The position numbers and the translations under genes are program-made. Below the pieces are notes generated by a model, which did no database searches, was not told the DNA's origin, and saw nothing but the letters and a program-made list of their open reading frames with translations. A DNA stretch of 24,667 bases from a virus, in IMG/VR virus record IMGVR_UViG_3300009790_000065, positions 1 to 24,667 of that record, one strand, 5' to 3'. The stretch's first letter is position 1; the number at the start of each line of letters is the position of its first letter. Below, one piece after another: positions 1-18,800 of the stretch.

Positions 1-2367
1 AGAAGCACCCGTGTATGTACCTCGGTTCGCTCCTGACATAACTGCTTCAGGTAGTTGTGCCAATGTATTTGAAATCTCTGCTTGAGTAGATGCTAGATTT
101 TGCATCATCGCTGTTGTTGCCCCGTCACCACTTCCCATCATCGCTCCTGCTTGCATCAAAGCATCAGTAGTTTCAGTCTTCATAACTTTATTCATCGCTG
201 ACAAATCTTTGATAGCATTAGTATATTCTGGACGAGCAAACATCTGTGCTGCTTGTAGAAAAAGTTTGGCTGAGTTTTCAGCCAGGACTATCTCATTGGC
301 ATGTAGGATAGCAGGTACCTGATCACTCTTTACTGATTGTACCAGACCACCTGATCTCATTTCTGTTGGCTTCATGTCCAAAAGAACACCCAACATGCTA
401 GATTTGAAATCCATAAGATATGCCTTAGCACCATGATCAGATATCTTATAGCTAGTATCTCGGGTGATTCCTTTGAAGAAATCTAAACTGGTCATCGAAT
501 CAATCATTTTACCAAACGGATTTGGGAATGTTAGACTCGCAGTAACTGCTTCTATATCAAATGTGAAGAATTCGCCAACCCATTTCTTAACCTTATCAAT
601 CATAGCCTTGAGTGAGTCTCCTATCAATGCACCAAAGTCAAATGCCTTAAACTCTAAATCTAAACCTTCTTTACCTTTCTTCGAATCTTTATACTGCTTA
701 CTTAAACCTTGGAACGATGCTATGGCAGGTTTGAGCCAGTCGGGTATAAGTGCTGACCAGTTAAACTCAAACTCCTCACCACTCGCCTTTGCCTTCTTTC
801 TTTCATATAATATACGATATAATCCTGTGGGCATAATCATTTTTGCCCACCATTTCATACTCATGAGATTCTTCATGGTGAACTCTTGTTTACCTTCTTC
901 GGTTACCTCGACTTTAGTATCCGTCATTAGTTGTACGAGAAACTTGGGTAACAGTTTTTTCCACCATTCTTTATCCCAGTTTGACTTCACTTCTTTGGTT
1001 CCTGCCGCATCTATTGCTAAAATATCTTGTATAAACTTCGGTAACAGGTGTTTCCATTCAAACTTATCCTTTCCTGCCTCGTATTCTCCCTTGAAGAACT
1101 TGAACAGAAACTGTGGCAGTGGCAAGAAGTCATACCAATTCTGAAACTTATCTCCCTTGGCTATCTCTTTCTTTGCTCCTCTGATGTAATCTTGCATAAA
1201 CTCAGGGAATAGATTATACCACTTAAACTCAGGGACATCTATCTTGAGAAAGGTTCCATCAAATAGTTTCTTAAGATTGGGTGGCCAGAAATCATCGAGA
1301 GTGAATGTCATATTCTTTAACCAGTCTGGTGCCAATGCTTCTATTAGATTTCCGATTGGTTCAATAACGAGAGATTGCCATTTGTCAGCAAACCAGTTTC
1401 CAAGAGAATCAAATCCTTCAGCCAGTTTCTTACCTCCGACCCAACCAAGCACTGCACCAAGAGCAGCTCCTATCAAGCCACCGACTATAGGTCCAATGGG
1501 AGGAAGAAATAAACCAGCAGTCGCCCCGATACCTGCCCACTTACCAGCATTCTTAAATGCATTTAGAATACCTCCAGCACCATCTCCAGCAAAAAATCCT
1601 CCTAGGAAACCTGAGAGTTTTGTTACTCCCCAGTTCTCTGAGTTAGTCCATCCTGATATACCATCTGCGATTGCCTCAGCTATTCCAAGAACAGCACCAG
1701 CGAGTGGTATCATTCTTACCGCACCTTTTGCGGCACCCTTTACACCTTCCTTGAGAGCAGTCGGAAGAGCAGCAGATACTGCTTTCCAACCTGCTGTGAC
1801 AGCAGCCAATATGCCACCAGCTATTGTTGCTCCTAGACCTTTCAATCCTGCTACAACACCTTTCATAACATCGCCTGCTTTGAATGATTTGCCCGCATCC
1901 TTGAATAAATCTAAACCTTTTTGCTGAACTTTATTCTTCGCTTGCCGATCCTCAGCATTCAATCTCATTTCTTTTCGGTCTTCGTACCTCTTCCATAGAC
2001 CATAGTATTTGGATTGCTCACCCAACATTTTGGCAAAGAGACCGTATTTCTTTTTCTCCCCCTCTGCTAACTCTTTGTCTCTTTTCGTGGTACGAAAACG
2101 CAGTCTCTTTTCTTCTTCTTTCTTATCTTTCTTTTCCTCTTCAGCTACTTTGGTTACTGTCTCAGCTATCTGTTGAGTACCTTTGAATACGGAACGATTT
2201 GACTGGATCAGATTAGCAACCATACCCGTGAGTTTGGCAGTGCTTGCTTTCTGTTCATTAACGACACGATTTATGTTAAGATTGAGTTGCGTTAGTCCAC
2301 CTCTCAACTTCTTACCATTCTCTTTGTTAATATTTGCTATTTCTTTTAATATTGCTTCTTCAGCCAT
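1..2367 (-). CDS. Tail tape-measure protein (3' end beyond window)
   Basis: The frame is open without a stop from an ATG at 2367 to the window edge, giving 789 residues of an incomplete protein. A GGAG ribosome site lies just upstream. Residues about 1-140 are charged and probably coiled coil. Residues about 276-310 are Gly/Ala-rich and hydrophobic, as in the membrane-active parts of tape measures. Residues about 345-600 hold spaced Trp-centred repeats. Near residues 680-700 there is a Gly-Gly followed by VPAILHANEIVL, which resembles the 'GG...VPAmLtpGEfVi' element common in tape-measure C-termini. Such proteins set tail length, fill the tube and are ejected first. The gene lies directly after the gp26/gp51-like chaperone gene, the classic position for a tape measure. 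It would be the functional equivalent of T4 gp29, although I see no direct sequence match to gp29. An alternative is another large internal tail protein. The family call is fairly sure. Confidence 0.78.
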   Translation of the reverse strand, partial: MAEEAILKEIANINKENGKKLRGGLTQLNLNINRVVNEQKASTAKLTGMVANLIQSNRSVFKGTQQIAETVTKVAEEEKKDKKEEEKRLRFRTTKRDKELAEGEKKKYGLFAKMLGEQSKYYGLWKRYEDRKEMRLNAEDRQAKNKVQQKGLDLFKDAGKSFKAGDVMKGVVAGLKGLGATIAGGILAAVTAGWKAVSAALPTALKEGVKGAAKGAVRMIPLAGAVLGIAEAIADGISGWTNSENWGVTKLSGFLGGFFAGDGAGGILNAFKNAGKWAGIGATAGLFLPPIGPIVGGLIGAALGAVLGWVGGKKLAEGFDSLGNWFADKWQSLVIEPIGNLIEALAPDWLKNMTFTLDDFWPPNLKKLFDGTFLKIDVPEFKWYNLFPEFMQDYIRGAKKEIAKGDKFQNWYDFLPLPQFLFKFFKGEYEAGKDKFEWKHLLPKFIQDILAIDAAGTKEVKSNWDKEWWKKLLPKFLVQLMTDTKVEVTEEGKQEFTMKNLMSMKWWAKMIMPTGLYRILYERKKAKASGEEFEFNWSALIPDWLKPAIASFQGLSKQYKDSKKGKEGLDLEFKAFDFGALIGDSLKAMIDKVKKWVGEFFTFDIEAVTASLTFPNPFGKMIDSMTSLDFFKGITRDTSYKISDHGAKAYLMDFKSSMLGVLLDMKPTEMRSGGLVQSVKSDQVPAILHANEIVLAENSAKLFLQAAQMFARPEYTNAIKDLSAMNKVMKTETTDALMQAGAMMGSGDGATTAMMQNLASTQAEISNTLAQLPEAVMSGANRGTYTGAS

Positions 2368-2376
2368 ATATCTCCG

Positions 2377-2580
2377 TTAACCGAAAAGATCCCCTTCGGC
2401 ACCCTGTTGTTGTCTTTTCTCTTGTTCAATAGCATCCATAATTTGAAAAGATAATATTTGCCTCTCCCAAGGTACCATGTTTAATAGATCCTCAATAGTG
2501 TACTTGTGGTATCTATGTAACGCAAAGTTAGTTCGAAAGTGATTCTCTAGACTATCATGCGAGAGGCATATCAGAAAAAA
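2377..2580 (-). CDS. 51: gp51-like -1 frameshift extension of gp26
   Basis: After the slippery site the -1 frame reads 65 codons, from CTG at 2573 down to TAA at 2379-2377. It contains HRYHKYTIEDLLNMVPWERQ and a Gln/Glu-rich helical end. The 'H..yt.edll.mvPWER' pattern matches the short gp51-like ORFs of marine T4-like phages, and resembles the second half (T part) of frameshifted tail assembly chaperones. There is no ATG, GTG or TTG between the preceding in-frame stop and the ATG at 2478, which would leave only 33 residues and cut the motif. Translation as a gp26-gp51 fusion of about 303 residues (2377-3287 with one slip) is therefore the simplest reading. The tape-measure ATG follows 9 bases after the stop. 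Independent start at the internal ATG or a non-standard start remains possible. That the frame is coding is likely; the frameshift is inferred. Confidence 0.72.
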   Translation of the reverse strand, partial: FFLICLSHDSLENHFRTNFALHRYHKYTIEDLLNMVPWERQILSFQIMDAIEQEKRQQQGAEGDLFG

Positions 2581-3287
2581 GATTGTAGTCCTCGAACCTC
2601 TTGTTCAAAAGGTTGCCCGCAAGTCTTACACTTCGGAACCTTTATAGTATGCTTGACCGTGGGCATATCCTCAAAGAAAGTCTGTATTTTCATAAACTGT
2701 TCTGAGTTCATTGAGTTAATGAAATCGTCAAGTTCCTTATCGTCTATCTTACTTCTCTCGTGAACCTCACCGTCCTTCGTGTAGATGCTGTCAATACATG
2801 ACTTTATCATAAGGAATGATGATTCTTGAATTTCCTCTTCTTCTATGTTCGCGAACTGATCCATCATTTCTAGTGTAGGATATTTCATCTTGACACCTAC
2901 ATTATCATCCAGCATTATTTCATCCTTGATATCATCATTCATGTGAACTTTGACTTCCCTTAGGTTTAGTTTAACGGGAGTCCGTTCACATTCTGGACTA
3001 CCAGGATGTTCCATCAAAAGATCTACACTCTGTCCTACCGATTCAGATCTGAGTTGTAGAAAGATGTATTCTATATCAAATGAAGGCAAGGCATCTAAGT
3101 CCATCTCCTTACCTTGAATACAATTTCCCAATACCTGTTTAAGAGCAGGTATCATGGCTCCAGGAGAATCCTGTGCCTGTAATAATATTTTCTCTTCTGA
3201 TACCAGAAAAGGTCTCAGAGTGAGTTTGTCGCCAGTCGAGGGTTGCCGTACCTCAAAGTTTCTGACCGATAACTGTGGTAATGCCAT
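2571..3287 (-). CDS. 26: gp26-like baseplate hub assembly protein (zero-frame product)
   Basis: This encodes 238 residues from an ATG at 3287, with an AAAGGA ribosome site just upstream. It resembles the T4 gp26 / T4_baseplate family of marine T4-like phages: an N-terminal beta-rich start (PSTGDKLTLRPFLVSEEKIL), a middle region of the type 'LPSFDIEYIFLQLRSESVG', and a C-terminal CKTCG (Cys220, Cys223), half of a zinc-ribbon-like motif. The family acts in assembly of the baseplate hub rather than as a main tube or wedge part. T4 gp26 is about 208 residues, so the size fits. The last two codons are TTT TTC inside a T TTT TTC slippery heptamer that touches the TGA stop, so some ribosomes probably continue in the -1 frame into the gp51-like extension. 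The gene sits between gp54 and the tape measure, which supports a role as tape-measure or hub chaperone. Confidence 0.82.
   Translation of the reverse strand: MALPQLSVRNFEVRQPSTGDKLTLRPFLVSEEKILLQAQDSPGAMIPALKQVLGNCIQGKEMDLDALPSFDIEYIFLQLRSESVGQSVDLLMEHPGSPECERTPVKLNLREVKVHMNDDIKDEIMLDDNVGVKMKYPTLEMMDQFANIEEEEIQESSFLMIKSCIDSIYTKDGEVHERSKIDDKELDDFINSMNSEQFMKIQTFFEDMPTVKHTIKVPKCKTCGQPFEQEVRGLQSFF
2574..2580 (-). promoter_or_regulatory. Candidate -1 ribosomal frameshift slippery heptamer T TTT TTC
   Basis: On the minus strand the gp26 codons end TCT TTT TTC TGA. The third base of TCT plus TTT TTC gives the X XXY YYZ heptamer T TTT TTC in exactly the phase needed for a -1 slip. The zero-frame stop codon follows at once, which is known to favour slipping. 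After the slip the frame runs into the gp51-like sequence. A weak 4-bp stem (ATGC/GCAT with a 5-base loop) begins about 3 bases past the stop. I see no strong pseudoknot by eye. Confidence 0.65.
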
Positions 3288-3307: not shown

Positions 3308-3976
3308 CTATGTTGTTACCTCATTAGATACTCCTGTTGAATCTAACCATTGTGGATCCCATCGGGCATCTTCGAACTTAGTAATAGCAAATGTTACTGG
3401 TAGTTTTAATACGTCTCCACTAGAACCAGTATCCAACGAAACCTCTCCCATGGTCTTTGGGAAACATCCTTTGAATGTGATTCTAACAGGTCTCTTCCCT
3501 GCTAAGTTGCTGTGTTTTGGTTGAGCAACTGCTCTTATATCTGGAACGACTGTTGATACGTGGATGTCGCATGAATATTCATCGTAGTATCCTACGAATG
3601 CTGTTTTAGGATTTACAACCATATTCATCCAAGCATTCATAAAGTTCCATATATTCATCGCAAGAACACTATTGTCCATCGCGAAGGTGATTGCTAGATC
3701 ACTGTATTGTAAGTTGTATCCTACAGGTTTCGGTACATTCTGTGTAAATATCTCTTTTGTGATCAGTCCCTTTGTAGGAAGTGATGCTGTCTGTGCCTGT
3801 AATCCTATGCCAGTTGGTTCTAATCCTTTTGCTATATCAAGGAGTCTTTGCCCCTTTCTTTGCACACCTTTCTTAGGATTCGCATTTATATCCAAATAAA
3901 CTTGGAATAGATGTGCTCTGGCAAATCCATTCCTCTGGTCAAAGTGACTAATAAAAGCATCTACATCTGTCGTCAT
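3308..3976 (-). CDS. 54: gp54-like baseplate/tail-tube initiator
   Basis: This encodes 222 residues. The order of elements matches T4 gp54: an N-terminal 'FISHFDQRNGFARAHLFQVYLD' type segment (split here as residues 8-20 and 20-29), a 'TASLPTKGL' loop near 63-71, a central beta-strand and helix 'ITFAMDNSVLAMNIWNFMN' near 96-114, then FKGCFPKTMGEVSLD near 168-182, followed by LPVTFAITKF near 192-201. The last part parallels the 'FTGCVP...TVTFAY' end of gp54 and of tail-tube gp19 proteins, which share a fold. gp54 sits on the hub together with gp48 and gives the first ring on which the tube grows. T4 gp54 is about 320 residues, so this one is short, mainly between the first strand and the loop. 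The ATG overlaps the stop of the gene upstream (ATGA at 3976-3973) and has AAAGGAT before it. An alternative is another tail-tube paralogue. Confidence 0.75.
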   Translation of the reverse strand: MTTDVDAFISHFDQRNGFARAHLFQVYLDINANPKKGVQRKGQRLLDIAKGLEPTGIGLQAQTASLPTKGLITKEIFTQNVPKPVGYNLQYSDLAITFAMDNSVLAMNIWNFMNAWMNMVVNPKTAFVGYYDEYSCDIHVSTVVPDIRAVAQPKHSNLAGKRPVRITFKGCFPKTMGEVSLDTGSSGDVLKLPVTFAITKFEDARWDPQWLDSTGVSNEVTT

Positions 3977-4644
3977 GCCATCATCCTTTTAGAGTCTTTG
4001 TAAACCTGCTCAGCAGATGCCCCTTGGAATCTTGCTACAGGCATAAATATTGCTACGTCCCATTCATCTGCTGGGACTTGTACTGCCATTTTCACTCTAT
4101 TAATAAGGTACTTTTTCACAGCAGGTTTCACTTCCCTTATCTTAGATAACTGTTTCCAGTTCAGTCTAAGGAAGGTATTCGAATCGTTTTCTTTTCCGTT
4201 TCTATATCTGTTTAACTGATCCATAAGATTTGCTCTCATATAAGGAGACAAATAATGGAGGTTCAATCCTATCATATGTGGTGGATTAAAGTCAAAAAAG
4301 ATAGTCAACGGAAACCTGTCCCAGTACGGCAGAGTATCTTTATACTTAGCATCGTACTCAAAGAAAAACATTTTACCGTAGACGACCTTTCTGCTGGTCA
4401 TCTTTGCTCTGTCGTAACCACCTCTTCGAAATATATCTTGAGGTTTTATTCCTTTTAGACCACTCCCTTTTACGCCTGCTCTTGTAGCATTATACGATTG
4501 CCTAGCGAGATCCTTGCCTTGTTGGATCTTGGATTTGAACCAGTTCGTTGCCTTAGTCTTAAGATTCTCAGCACGACCTGTTCTCAGAGCATCTTTGAAT
4601 TTATCCAGTAAAGATTCTTTGAGGTCTTGTCTTTGTGTAGCCAT
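3973..4644 (-). CDS. Unrecognised late virion-associated protein
   Basis: This encodes 223 residues and I cannot name the family. Residues 1-85 are basic, Lys/Arg-rich and probably helical. From about residue 87 there is a compact domain with VVYGKMFFFEYDAKYKD, TLPYWDRFPLTIFF, NPPHMIGLNLHYLSP and then MRANLMDQLNRY, a pattern I associate with an uncharacterised protein of marine T4-like phages. There is no signal peptide or membrane segment, and no obvious catalytic motif. Its ATG at 4644 overlaps the last base of gp4, and its stop overlaps the start of gp54, so the three genes are tightly coupled in translation. This suggests a role in head completion or in baseplate/tube assembly. In T4 the neighbour of gp4 is gp2 (DNA end protector). 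I see no evidence strong enough to call this gp2. Confidence 0.8.
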   Translation of the reverse strand: MATQRQDLKESLLDKFKDALRTGRAENLKTKATNWFKSKIQQGKDLARQSYNATRAGVKGSGLKGIKPQDIFRRGGYDRAKMTSRKVVYGKMFFFEYDAKYKDTLPYWDRFPLTIFFDFNPPHMIGLNLHYLSPYMRANLMDQLNRYRNGKENDSNTFLRLNWKQLSKIREVKPAVKKYLINRVKMAVQVPADEWDVAIFMPVARFQGASAEQVYKDSKRMMA

Positions 4645-5075
4645 TAAATCTTAAGTCCAAGTGTTTTATTTAAATCTTTTTCAGTCCAAATACGCCAGTT
4701 CAACCCTGCCCGATCACAAAAGTCCTTAGCTGCTGTCCACTTTGCTTCATTCGTTTTCCACCTCGCCTGTTCCTTGAAGAACCTCTTATGCTTAGCATTG
4801 GTGGGAGGTTTGGTTTGTGAGGCAGGTTTTATCTCTACCAGCCACTTCGACCCATCTGTTAGTTCGAAGTAGAGGTCAGGGTAATATTTATGAATACCCC
4901 CTCGCCAGTCAGTGTAAGGAATCTTTATCTCTTCACTGGCCCAGAACTTTACATTCTTTTGATCCTCAAGAAACTGAAATGTCCTCAGTTCCCATCTGGA
5001 TCTGTACACGACATTGCGATAGTTACCCAGGTATTTCTCTGGTTTCTTGACTTTATACTTTCCACGCATAGCCAC
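4644..5075 (-). CDS. 4: gp4 head-completion protein (PD-(D/E)XK-type nuclease)
   Basis: This encodes 143 residues, close to T4 gp4 (about 150). The match is strong over the whole length: RGKYKVKKPEKYLGNY at the start, VVYRSRWELR (Glu29), WASEEIKIPY, YYPDLYFEL (Asp67), WLVEIKPASQTKPP (Glu81, Lys83) and the C-terminal WRIWTEKDL. Glu29, Asp67 and Glu81-Ile-Lys83 form a complete PD-(D/E)XK nuclease set. gp4 is needed to complete the DNA-filled head so that a tail can join, and T4 gp4 has been shown to be a nuclease. The first start is GTG at 5075, and an in-frame ATG lies two codons later at 5069. No good ribosome site precedes either, and the CTAAATA box ends only 4 bases before the GTG, so the mRNA may have almost no leader. 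It is the first gene of the minus-strand operon. Confidence 0.92.
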   Translation of the reverse strand: MAMRGKYKVKKPEKYLGNYRNVVYRSRWELRTFQFLEDQKNVKFWASEEIKIPYTDWRGGIHKYYPDLYFELTDGSKWLVEIKPASQTKPPTNAKHKRFFKEQARWKTNEAKWTAAKDFCDRAGLNWRIWTEKDLNKTLGLKI

Positions 5076-5119: not shown

Positions 5120-5962
5120 ATGGCGACTATTAATTTGACTTGGCCAGATTCATTAGGCGATCAGAAACAAGGTCAACCGAACTACATTCTTTTTACTGCT
5201 AGGAAGAGATTATACACAGGCAGAGAAAATGAACTTGGTACTGTTGCCTTGCCGATACCTATTGGTGCGTTGGCTAGTACATACAAAGCAAATTATGAAA
5301 ATGCTGCTCTTGGAATCATGGGAGGCATTGCTGCTGGTGCGGCAAACAGAGCATCGGGAGCTAATCTTGCCGACTATTCCAAGAATCTGACAAGTGAATT
5401 ATTGAACTCTGGGAAGAATGCAGGGAAGGACGCATCGGCTGAGCAAGTCGCAGAGACTGCTCTTGCCGCACTTCCTGGAGGTGGTGCTCTTGCGAAGTTT
5501 AAGAATAATGTTCTTGGTACGATGAAAAATCCATATCAGTTTGTTACGTATTCTGGTCCCGAGTTCAGATCGTTTGCTATGAACTGGACGATGATACCAA
5601 CCAGCGAGGGCGAAGCATTAACTATTCATAAGATTACCAAGTTCTTCAAGAAGCATGTTTTGCCTAGGAGAGGAGATACAGCATCGACCTTCTTTGAGAT
5701 GCCTCCTACGATGGAAGTTGAAATGAAGATCCATGCTGAAGGGAAGTCGACTGCTATTAATCTGAAAGATGGTAGAGATGCAAGTGGACGAGTGCATAGA
5801 TTTGCTCGATGTGTTTTGACGAATACCGAAGTTGATTTCAATGGAATGGGTGCTCTTGTTCCGACCTTTTATCACGATGGTTATCCTACAGCAACCAAAC
5901 TCACGATTGGATTGCAGGAGACCGAACTCATAACAGCAGATATGGTAGATAAAGGATTCTAA
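5120..5962 (+). CDS. 48: gp48-like baseplate tail-tube cap
   Basis: This encodes 280 residues from an ATG at 5120 with AAAGGA about 8 bases upstream. Residues 137-180 contain NPYQFVTYSGPEFRSFAMNW and then TMIPTSEGEALTIHKITKFF, the hallmark of gp48 proteins ('NP....f.gv.pRsF.f.w...P.s..Ea..i..ii..fr'). The C-terminal third has beta-strands (FEMPPTMEVEMKI, CVLTNTEVDFN) and ends in a strand pattern typical of the tube fold (TKLTIGLQETELIT). gp48 binds the hub with gp54 and starts the tail tube. T4 gp48 is about 364 residues. Residues 50-130 are Ala/Gly-rich (IMGGIAAGAANRASGAN), perhaps a flexible insertion. Unlike T4, where 29-48-54 are adjacent, gp48 here is divergent from gp54. Confidence 0.82.
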   Translation: MATINLTWPDSLGDQKQGQPNYILFTARKRLYTGRENELGTVALPIPIGALASTYKANYENAALGIMGGIAAGAANRASGANLADYSKNLTSELLNSGKNAGKDASAEQVAETALAALPGGGALAKFKNNVLGTMKNPYQFVTYSGPEFRSFAMNWTMIPTSEGEALTIHKITKFFKKHVLPRRGDTASTFFEMPPTMEVEMKIHAEGKSTAINLKDGRDASGRVHRFARCVLTNTEVDFNGMGALVPTFYHDGYPTATKLTIGLQETELITADMVDKGF

Positions 5963-6522
5963 TGGCTACAGCACCTCCTAAACCACAGGTACCTACAACG
6001 AAATATTTTGCTAACTTTCCGGCAGTCCAATTTGACATGCTTAAGAATGGGAAGTTTAAGCAGGTCCCAGATCTAACCTCAACTGCTAAGTTTCGTGGTG
6101 ATGCCCTTGATTTGGTCAGACAATATCAACCCTATCGGATTCCTGATGGGGAGCGACCTGACATCACATCCCACAAACTTTATGATGATGTAAGATATGT
6201 TTGGGTTATTATGTTTGTGAATAATATACAAAACATCTACACGGACTGGCCCAAATCAGATTCGATTATGAACGAGAGACTGTACAGGAAATATGGTAGT
6301 CCTGCCAATGCGCAGGCACTCATACACCACTATGAGGATGATCGTGGTAACGAGATAGATAGAGCGAAGTACATACAGGATACGGATACAAATAAAATCG
6401 TTACAGCATTTGATTATGAGATCAATCTCAACGAAGCAAAGAGGGATATTACAGTTCCTCAGCCAGTTTATTTACCCAGTCTACTCAAAGAATTACAAAC
6501 AGTTTTCAATAGTCCCGTATAA
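5962..6522 (+). CDS. 53: gp53 baseplate wedge protein
   Basis: This encodes 186 residues (T4 gp53 is about 196). The start YFANFPAVQFDM, then DLVRQYQPYRIPDGERPDIT near 50-69 and HKLYDDVRYVWVIMFVNN near 71-88, followed by DWPKSDSIMNERL, is the gp53 signature: a LysM-like fold whose 'i.dGERPD..s.klYgd..yyWv..l.N' core clips wedges together around the hub. The C-terminal helix (VYLPSLLKELQTVF) also fits. Its ATG overlaps the gp48 stop (TAATG), so the two are translationally coupled. The adjacent gene order gp53 then hub/spike recalls T4 (4-53-5). Confidence 0.9.
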   Translation: MATAPPKPQVPTTKYFANFPAVQFDMLKNGKFKQVPDLTSTAKFRGDALDLVRQYQPYRIPDGERPDITSHKLYDDVRYVWVIMFVNNIQNIYTDWPKSDSIMNERLYRKYGSPANAQALIHHYEDDRGNEIDRAKYIQDTDTNKIVTAFDYEINLNEAKRDITVPQPVYLPSLLKELQTVFNSPV

Positions 6523-8120
6523 TGGCCCAACAGCAGAAACCTATAACTCCAGGCGACTTTCGTATAACCGAATGTTCCATCCAAACCTTTGGTGGACAGA
6601 TATACGATATAAATGACAAATGGGTTCAAGTAGACATATTTGAATCTATCTATTCTCCAAGTCTAGAGTTAATACTTACAATACAGGATGGTGTTGGGAT
6701 GCTTGAGACTCTTCCCATTATTGGAGAAGAGAAAATATTTATGACTATGTATACTGGCTCAGATCCTACCCGAGCCACTCGCATGATTTTCCATACGTAC
6801 AAGATAGAGGAAATAAAAGATACTGCGATGTCTGCCTCTACTTACAGGATTAGATGCTGTAGTCCAGAATCTGTTTTGAATACCAGACTGAGAGTCTATA
6901 ACTCATATGGACCTTTGCCTTATTCTGAAATGGCAAAGCAGATATATCAAGAATATTTTACCCTTGAGCTAAACAAAAGTCTATCTCCAGTTTACAAGAA
7001 AAATTTCAACATAGAGGATACGAAGGGTGGGTATGTAATAGCATTCCCAGGCATGAATCCTTTTGATGCTCTTTCTATGATCGCCCGAAGATCTATTACA
7101 CGAGTAGATAATACCATTCCTGGATCCCTTTTCTTTTTCTGGGAGACTCTACATGGGCACTATTTCAGAAGTGTAGAGACTATTATGAAGAGATATCAGG
7201 AGCATGTTGAGGATGGTCTCCTTGATGATATTCCGAAGTTTTTGGTCAGACCGAAAAATCTTCAGGATCCTGATAATCCAAACTCTGGCAGAAACGAAAA
7301 GGATTTCTTTACCATAGATCACTTCGAGCATGAGAACTATTTTGACACTCTCAAAAATATGCAGGAGGGGATGTACTCACGTAAACTGATCGGTCATAAT
7401 TTGATTGACATGGTAGTGGAACAGCATGAGTACTTCTATGATAGAGACGGATATTCACAGGGGCATCTCAAGAAGGATAGCATTCTTGCTTCGTCTGCGT
7501 CAATGGGACTCGCACCTTCTGGAGCAGAGAAAAAAGGTGCACAACATAATAAGTTTTCGCATGTAGAATATTTCCCTTTGAACGGGTCAGCATTCTATAA
7601 CAACGCAGGTAAGTGGAAGTTGAACAGAGGTTCGCAGATAGAACAACTACAATCTATGGTTCTAAATGTTACCATACCAGGAGACGATAGAGTAGAGGCA
7701 GGTACCTGTCTAACATTAGAACTGCCTTCTAGAGTTCCCCGTACACCGACCAACAAAGAGGTACTGAGATCGGGTGGATTTCTGGTTACAAGAGTACAAC
7801 ATAACTTTCGAGGTGGCGACTATAAAATGGTTCTCGAGGTTGTCAAGGATTCATACGAAGTCGAACTAAACAAAATCATTACAGTTCCAAATCATATGCA
7901 ACAACTTCACCCTGTCACATTGAAACCTCTTTCGGCAGGTGAGTCGTTTACACCAAAGAGTGTTCCAGGTAGAGCAAAAGATTCTGCTAGCGAGGACAGT
8001 GATACGGATCCAGATTTTTATGCTGTTTATTCTAATGTCGGTAAAAATGATCCAGTGCCAACTGGCCCAAGAGTTCCCGAAAAAGTTTCTTCTGACCAGA
8101 GAATACAGGAGACTCTATGA
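6522..8120 (+). CDS. 27: gp27-like baseplate hub protein
   Basis: This encodes 532 residues. The N-terminal part (residues 12-57: FRITECSIQTFGGQIYDIN, then FESIYSPSLELILTIQDG) is the first tube-like domain of gp27/gpD-type hubs. YRIRCCSPESVLN near 108-120 and AFPGMNPFDALSMIARRS near 174-191 are the family's second and third blocks. GGFLVTRVQHNFRGGDYKMV near residues 423-442 is the closing strand pair also seen in VgrG hubs. A trimer of gp27 forms the torus that joins the tube (through gp54/gp48) to the gp5 spike. T4 gp27 is 391 residues, so this one carries about 80 extra residues after residue 455. They are rich in Pro, Ser and Asp and probably disordered (for example residues 478-532). The stop overlaps the ATG of the spike gene (ATGA), so the two are coupled. 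Confidence 0.82.
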   Translation: MAQQQKPITPGDFRITECSIQTFGGQIYDINDKWVQVDIFESIYSPSLELILTIQDGVGMLETLPIIGEEKIFMTMYTGSDPTRATRMIFHTYKIEEIKDTAMSASTYRIRCCSPESVLNTRLRVYNSYGPLPYSEMAKQIYQEYFTLELNKSLSPVYKKNFNIEDTKGGYVIAFPGMNPFDALSMIARRSITRVDNTIPGSLFFFWETLHGHYFRSVETIMKRYQEHVEDGLLDDIPKFLVRPKNLQDPDNPNSGRNEKDFFTIDHFEHENYFDTLKNMQEGMYSRKLIGHNLIDMVVEQHEYFYDRDGYSQGHLKKDSILASSASMGLAPSGAEKKGAQHNKFSHVEYFPLNGSAFYNNAGKWKLNRGSQIEQLQSMVLNVTIPGDDRVEAGTCLTLELPSRVPRTPTNKEVLRSGGFLVTRVQHNFRGGDYKMVLEVVKDSYEVELNKIITVPNHMQQLHPVTLKPLSAGESFTPKSVPGRAKDSASEDSDTDPDFYAVYSNVGKNDPVPTGPRVPEKVSSDQRIQETL

Positions 8121-18404: not shown

Positions 18405-18800
18405 ATGGCAACACCTATACCTAAAACTTATTCGGATATCAGTCTCTCCATGAAGAGAAATCCTGTTACTAAGGATTTGGATGAGATTACGAACGAACAG
18501 GCAGTACAAGCATCCATATTAAATATTCTGGCAACTGGACCTTACGAGAGACTCTTTAGACCTGACCTTGGAGCTGGTCTGAAAGAAATGCTTTTTGAGC
18601 CAATGACAGAGCTGACTACTGCTCGAATGATTAATAAAATAAGGTCGGCCATCGAAACACAAGAACCTCGGGTTCTCATCGAAGATATCCGAGTTACTAT
18701 GAATGAAGAAAAACAACTTTATGATATATTTGTTATATGCACTATAAAAGACACTAAGCAAGAAGTTGAAATAACACAGACCTTGCAGAAAGGTAGATAA
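18405..18800 (+). CDS. 25: gp25 baseplate wedge protein
   Basis: This encodes 131 residues, nearly the size of T4 gp25 (132). The GPW/gp25 family pattern is complete: YSDISLSMKRNPVTKDL, then QASILNILATGPYERLFRPD near 36-54 with LGAGLKEMLFEP, and the conserved Glu-Pro-Arg at residues 87-89 (TQEPRVLIEDI) followed by paired strands. gp25 is a lysozyme-like folded structural protein without enzyme activity. It joins the gp6/gp53 wedge core and starts sheath polymerisation. Its stop overlaps the gp6 ATG (TAATG), the conserved 25-6 pairing found in most contractile systems. Confidence 0.93.
   Translation: MATPIPKTYSDISLSMKRNPVTKDLDEITNEQAVQASILNILATGPYERLFRPDLGAGLKEMLFEPMTELTTARMINKIRSAIETQEPRVLIEDIRVTMNEEKQLYDIFVICTIKDTKQEVEITQTLQKGR

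Follow-up and report, generated by a model that had tools for sequence, protein, structure and literature searches.

Introduction

In phage lambda, the tail assembly chaperone is made in two forms, a short gpG and a long gpGT that arises by -1 frameshifting when the stop near the end of the gene is bypassed; the G part binds the tape measure protein, whereas recruitment of the tail tube protein falls to the T part (PMC5009743). This G-T frameshifting has been described as conserved in long-tailed phages 'except T4' (Atkins et al. 2016, PMC5009743). In T4 itself, gp51 is an essential protein of hub assembly whose function has been described as unknown and which is absent from the final particle (PMC3004832). 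The tail assembly chaperones of T4-like phages were later the subject of a dedicated study (Vladimirov, Gautam and Davidson, Virology 2022, 566:9-15, PMID 34826709). In papers that cite it, that study is credited with a solution in which some T4-like phages have a short gene and a long fusion gene (the PRFect paper, PMC10885494) and with poly-T -1 signals in T4-like TAC-N genes (the Adele paper, PMC12846349).

Here we analyse a locus of this kind in an uncultured T4-like phage, represented by the IMG/VR virus record IMGVR_UViG_3300009790_000065. The whole stretch of 24,667 bases is called the window below. The 2022 study, which reportedly refers to genes 26 and 51 by name and describes frameshifting as conserved in several groups of T4-like phages, concerns the same phage group; as far as is known, the present uncultured phage is not named there.

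The gp26/gp51 locus

A first, sequence-only reading of the window had proposed that a gp26-like gene is joined to a gp51-like domain by a probable programmed -1 frameshift. The features that bear on this proposal are as follows.

3308..3976, minus strand: gene just upstream of gp26 with similarity to tail tube genes (phrog_45, tail tube, E=3.4e-30)
2571..3287, minus strand: gp26-like gene, short form (TAC-N, the equivalent of lambda gpG), 238 aa, stop TGA at 2573-2571
2589..2593, minus strand: GAGGA, a possible stimulator of Shine-Dalgarno type that lies 8 nt before the heptamer
2574..2580, minus strand: -1 slippery heptamer T_TTT_TTC in the zero-frame phase, abutting the gp26 stop
2377..2580, minus strand: gp51 domain in the -1 frame (TAC-C, the equivalent of lambda gpT), FF plus 65 codons, TAA at 2379-2377
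2377..3287, minus strand: predicted long form of 303 aa, in which -1 frameshifting would fuse gp26 to gp51 (joined translation; T4 gp51 has these two domains in a single frame)
1..2367, minus strand: long ORF, probable tape measure gene, with its ATG at 2367 and running off the window end

The gp26 protein matches PF12322 (T4_baseplate) with E=1.5e-56 and 192 bits, the curated cut-off being 24.5, and phrog_150 with E=1.1e-59. The 3' end of its gene reads GGA CTA CAA TCT TTT TTC TGA, which gives the protein end ...GLQSFF, and the heptamer at 2580-2574 abuts the TGA at 2573-2571 in the very phase that had been claimed for it. The open stretch of the -1 frame begins at 2604 and ends with the TAA at 2377; its translation is FFLICLSHDSLENHFRTNFALHRYHKYTIEDLLNMVPWERQILSFQIMDAIEQEKRQQQGAEGDLFG. 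Profile matches of this segment are to phrog_634 (gp51, baseplate hub assembly catalyst), with E=2.7e-19, and to the C-terminal end of phrog_150. The earlier description of it as a gp51-like frame of 65 codons with a PWER motif and a start-less beginning was accurate: after the slip-site FF, the first ATG, GTG or TTG is the Met of 'NMVPWER', codon 34 after the slip.

The gp51 stop was also said to lie 9 bases before the ATG of the tape measure gene. The 9 nt gap to the ATG at 2367 is correct, and the identity of the gene is probable. The ORF contains Ala/Gly-rich hydrophobic stretches and has weak matches only, to phrogs of unknown function; because these matches are weak and carry no function, we infer from its position and from the Ala/Gly-rich stretches that it is probably the tape measure gene. 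The gene order in the window is then tail tube, gp26/gp51 and likely tape measure.

T4-like morphogenesis genes are found near gp26 at 3973-5075 on the minus strand and at 5120-8120 and 18405-18800 on the plus strand. The matches there comprise the DNA end protector (gp2), head closure (gp4), the tail tube cap (gp48), a wedge protein (gp53), a tail protein and a wedge subunit (gp25-like). The genes around gp26/gp51 are an ordinary T4-like morphogenesis block.

An AlphaFold2 model of gp26 has a pLDDT of 94. A fold search of the PDB with this model gave no significant match. The HK97 tail assembly chaperone 2ob9 came 11th among about 350,000 chains (E=1.6, TM 0.37 on the target), and the likeness of the modelled fold to it is suggestive only. 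In the BFVD, the same kind of search returned only gp26-like proteins of other phages and uncharacterised relatives, and a sequence search of solved structures with gp26 and gp51 profiles found no relatives.

Conservation of the slippery heptamer

In IMG/VR, relatives were retrieved by gp26 patterns, independently of the slippery site: a scan with gp26 alone returned 22 loci and one with a gp26 alignment 80 loci, to which GenBank reference phages were added. The conservation set consisted of 112 loci in which the gp26 end could be read, and the non-redundant set of 90 genes with <85% identity. T_TTT_TTY (once TTA) occurs in the same phase in 108 of the 112 loci (T_TTT_TTC in 86, T_TTT_TTT in 21 and T_TTT_TTA in 1), either directly at the gp26 stop or 1 or 3 codons before it, and in all 108 of these gp51 is encoded by the -1 frame. 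Both the heptamer and the -1 overlap are hence conserved in T4-like relatives, which is the check that the sequence-only reading had proposed. The carriers include Pelagibacter phage HTVC008M, Methylophilales phage Melnitz, Prochlorococcus phages P-SSM2, P-SSM4 and P-HM1, Aeromonas phage avDM12-TAAL, Stenotrophomonas phage Mendera and Vibrio phage D491s, and by inspection the same arrangement is present in Synechococcus phage ACG-2014e, Stenotrophomonas phage DLP_6 and Acinetobacter phage SH-Ab 15599. The four exceptions are T4, PP01, Vibrio phage D495 and Klebsiella phage UPM 2146.

In the non-redundant set, XXT TTT is found at the FF dipeptide in 90 of 90 loci. Under the genes' own codon usage this corresponds to log10 P = -34.9, and for 20 sequences with <45% identity to log10 P = -9.7, where both values treat the sequences as independent, which relatives are not. 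Other FF dipeptides in the same genes are encoded by T_TTT_TTT in only 3 of 88 cases and by T_TTT_TTC in none of the 88. The second Phe codon of the heptamer is TTC in 72 of 90 loci, even though these genes use TTT twice as often as TTC; TTT is used in this place mostly where the stop comes directly after.

As the T homopolymer sits in a metagenomic contig, a sequencing or assembly error could in principle have split one continuous gene in two, and an error in the six-T run had been named from the outset as one way in which the proposal might fail, the lack of a conserved slippery site being another. However, the split recurs in 108 loci, including those of the cultured and fully sequenced P-SSM2, P-SSM4, HTVC008M and Melnitz, and gp26 stops at three different distances from the T run. 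The site is conserved, and the comparison across independent genomes refutes an error, the probability of which we consider negligible. Judged by these comparisons, the slip site is the product of neither chance nor faulty sequencing.

Elements flanking the slippery site

In most relatives, GAGGG or GAAGGG is found 8-10 nt before the heptamer; the GAGGA of the window is a weaker version. At the protein level this site is a conserved Glu-Gly. Its Glu codon is GAG in 53 of 73 cases against a background of 29% (P=2e-14), and where Glu is encoded by GAA, the Gly codon is GGG in 12 of 20 cases against 7.6% (P=2e-9). After thinning to 60-45% identity, the GAG test gives P=0.004-0.025, whereas the GGG-after-GAA test loses its support (1 of 8 at 60% identity). 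Because P falls from 2e-14 to 0.004-0.025 on thinning, we consider the evidence that this Shine-Dalgarno (SD)-like element is under codon-level selection in the relatives to be moderate.

This element also bears on the possibility that RNA polymerase, and not the ribosome, slips on the T run, so that part of the mRNAs would be in the -1 frame. The T runs are 6-8 long, reaching 8 in some relatives such as HTVC008M and the locus L004. Runs of 6-7 are, however, short for efficient transcriptional slippage. Moreover, in most cases a C comes after T6, and the phase is always the one required for tandem tRNA slippage, a phase that transcriptional slippage does not need, and an SD-like element speaks for the ribosome rather than RNA polymerase. 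Transcriptional slippage is therefore a very unlikely source of the -1 product.

Downstream of the heptamer, 60-nt folding windows across the relatives show an excess of folding at and just after the site (mean z -1.4 ± 0.15), with strong hairpins in some lineages (P-SSM2-like). In the window's clade there is no convincing downstream hairpin, the folding energy being about -3 to -6 kcal/mol over 50 nt. The stem or pseudoknot that the sequence-only reading had suggested looking for after the site was not borne out in the window either, where folding of 40-100 nt past the site gave no convincing structure of either type.

In E. coli dnaX, an SD-like sequence precedes the slippery heptamer and a hairpin follows it. 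The sites described here share with that layout an SD-like element some 8-10 nt before a homopolymeric heptamer and, in some relatives, the downstream hairpin. They differ from it in having a T run in place of the A run of dnaX and, in the window's clade, in the lack of a clear hairpin.

The gp51 domain

In the window's clade, substitutions in the -1 frame fall 203 times at the third codon position, 101 times at the first and 63 times at the second, and the frame is free of stops, which are present in the other two frames. Across 44 sequences of the domain, H8, L11, F19, P37, E39 and R40 are conserved, and protein conservation begins directly past FF. This pattern indicates that the gp51 -1 frame is under selection at the protein level.

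Such a frame might still belong to a separate gene 51 that is translated by re-initiation or coupling at a start of its own past the gp26 stop, which is how cyanophage annotations draw it. In P-SSM2, P-HM1, P-SSM4, HTVC008M and others, the annotated gp51 starts at an ATG past the gp26 stop, in 41 of 90 loci the first ATG is found 5 codons past the slip, and some Vibrio phages of an Ackermannviridae-like type have a gp26 stop that shares bases with an ATG (TAATG). However, no ATG, GTG or TTG is found up to three codons past the slip in 73 of 90 genomes, the earliest in the window being codon 34, and the conserved residues already begin just past FF. A start-less slip region combined with conservation directly after the slip is evidence against an independently started gp51. 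Furthermore, a separate start leaves XXT TTT TTY in 90 of 90 loci unexplained, and the SD-like element, about 25 nt from the commonest ATG, should be too far from it for initiation, given the usual spacing. Taken together, we regard separate initiation of gp51 as highly improbable and frameshifting as the better account of this frame. Relatives with a gp51 start of their own had been named as counter-evidence; near-slip starts turned out to occur in a minority, and in most relatives the starts lie too far inside the domain. For the window, a start at codon 34 is rejected, as its product would lack the first half of the domain, which is conserved.

The GenBank records of Vi01, UPM 2146, phiMAM1 and ACG-2014e leave the gp51 domain without any annotation, and those of P-SSM2, P-HM1 and HTVC008M annotate gp51 from an internal ATG, so that its conserved start is cut off. 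Among the GenBank records sampled, none has gp26/gp51 annotated as a joined gene. In one T4-like IMG/VR contig (L124, 3001-3746), the gp51 frame ends early and tblastn similarity continues to the end; the long-form gene of this contig is broken or misassembled.

T4 and the Ackermannviridae variants

T4 genes 26 and 51 are separate, as had been noted, and are divergent neighbours; the end of gene 26 is without a slippery heptamer. T4 gp26 matches the gp26 family end to end. T4 gp51, in turn, matches the same family (PF12322, E=3.9e-52) with its residues 1-201 and phrog_634 (E=1.2e-23) with residues 147-246, and phrog_150 covers its whole length. By these profile matches, T4 gp51 is the long form, a paralogue of gp26 to which the same C-terminal domain is attached, and T4 gp26 is the short form. 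T4 therefore encodes the two forms as paralogues. The window phage and T4 would thus have the same pair of proteins, which T4 makes from two genes and the window phage from one gene with a slip site. PP01 has gp26 and gp51 as two separate genes, like T4. A role of T4 gp51 as a long-form chaperone fits its absence from the final particle (PMC3004832).

The other two exceptions, Vibrio D495 and Klebsiella UPM 2146, are Ackermannviridae-type phages. In the Ackermannviridae and the Vibrio D495 group (loci L035, L126-L131 and L031), the gp51-like -1 frame is kept and the canonical heptamer is missing. The sites before the stop are ATTTTCATT, GTTTTCATC, GTTTTTCGC, CTTTTTCGC, CTTTTCAAG and GCTTTCATG, and in several of these loci the gp26 stop overlaps an ATG (TAATG).

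It is conceivable, and we offer it as a tentative proposal to which we give slightly less than an even chance, that the T4-like frameshift is a dnaX-like composite, in which a codon-selected SD-like element 8-10 nt before T_TTT_TTC is combined with a hairpin that varies with lineage. The Ackermannviridae, whose -1 gp51 frame may be served by N_TTT_TC-like sites or by TAATG coupling instead of the heptamer, would then occupy the middle of a graded series that runs from frameshifting, through weaker slippage or coupling, to the two genes of T4.

Discussion

The locus is very probably one gene that yields a tail assembly chaperone in two forms by -1 frameshifting. This reading is supported, and the programmed frameshift proposed at first strongly so, because the heptamer phase and the start-less gp51 frame are conserved in 108 loci, because of the gene order and because T4 has a gp26 plus gp51 protein in one frame. 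Most ribosomes would end at the gp26 stop and release the short form. A minority would slip back by one base on T_TTT_TTC, where both Phe tRNAs could re-pair to TTT TTT, bypass the stop and append the gp51 domain, so that the long form has 303 aa. If the system works like lambda G/GT, many copies of the short form and few of the long one may coat the tape measure protein, whose probable gene comes next; as in lambda, the gp26 part common to both forms would bind this protein, the added gp51 domain would recruit the tube protein encoded just upstream, and both forms would depart before the tail is complete. In this scheme, we infer the actual slippage, its rate and the binding partners of the two forms.

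The likeness to lambda consists in a short form and a -1 long form, with a stop bypassed near the end of the gene, and in a gene order that would be the same as V-G/GT-H, the tape measure gene being assigned here by position. The slippery site is a different one, the tail is contractile, the short form has 238 aa, and the two systems are likened by layout. The comparison with the G/GT layout made in the sequence-only reading would hold for the gene order, but its statement that the long form recruits the tape measure was imprecise, as in lambda it is the G part that binds the tape measure and the T part that recruits the tube protein (PMC5009743).

The link between T4 hub assembly proteins and frameshifted chaperones, drawn in that reading, is supported by our results but had been made before. 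According to the papers that cite it, the study of Vladimirov et al. 2022 had already covered the tail assembly chaperones of T4-like phages, their poly-T sites and the solution with two genes; the present frameshift is therefore not new in kind, and this locus is a further case. What may be new is the breadth of the comparison, the SD-like element with its codon test, the variants in the Ackermannviridae and the dependence of the hairpin on the lineage. The main conclusion has been published before, and our analysis extends it by breadth and by codon-level evidence for a stimulator.

In public cyanophage annotations, gp51 would accordingly have been given the wrong start codon or been missed as a gene. 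More generally, gp26 and gp51, the long-puzzling hub proteins of T4, would gain a clear role as the short and long tail assembly chaperones, and one function in one phage lineage would be encoded in two ways, by ribosomal frameshifting or by two paralogous genes.
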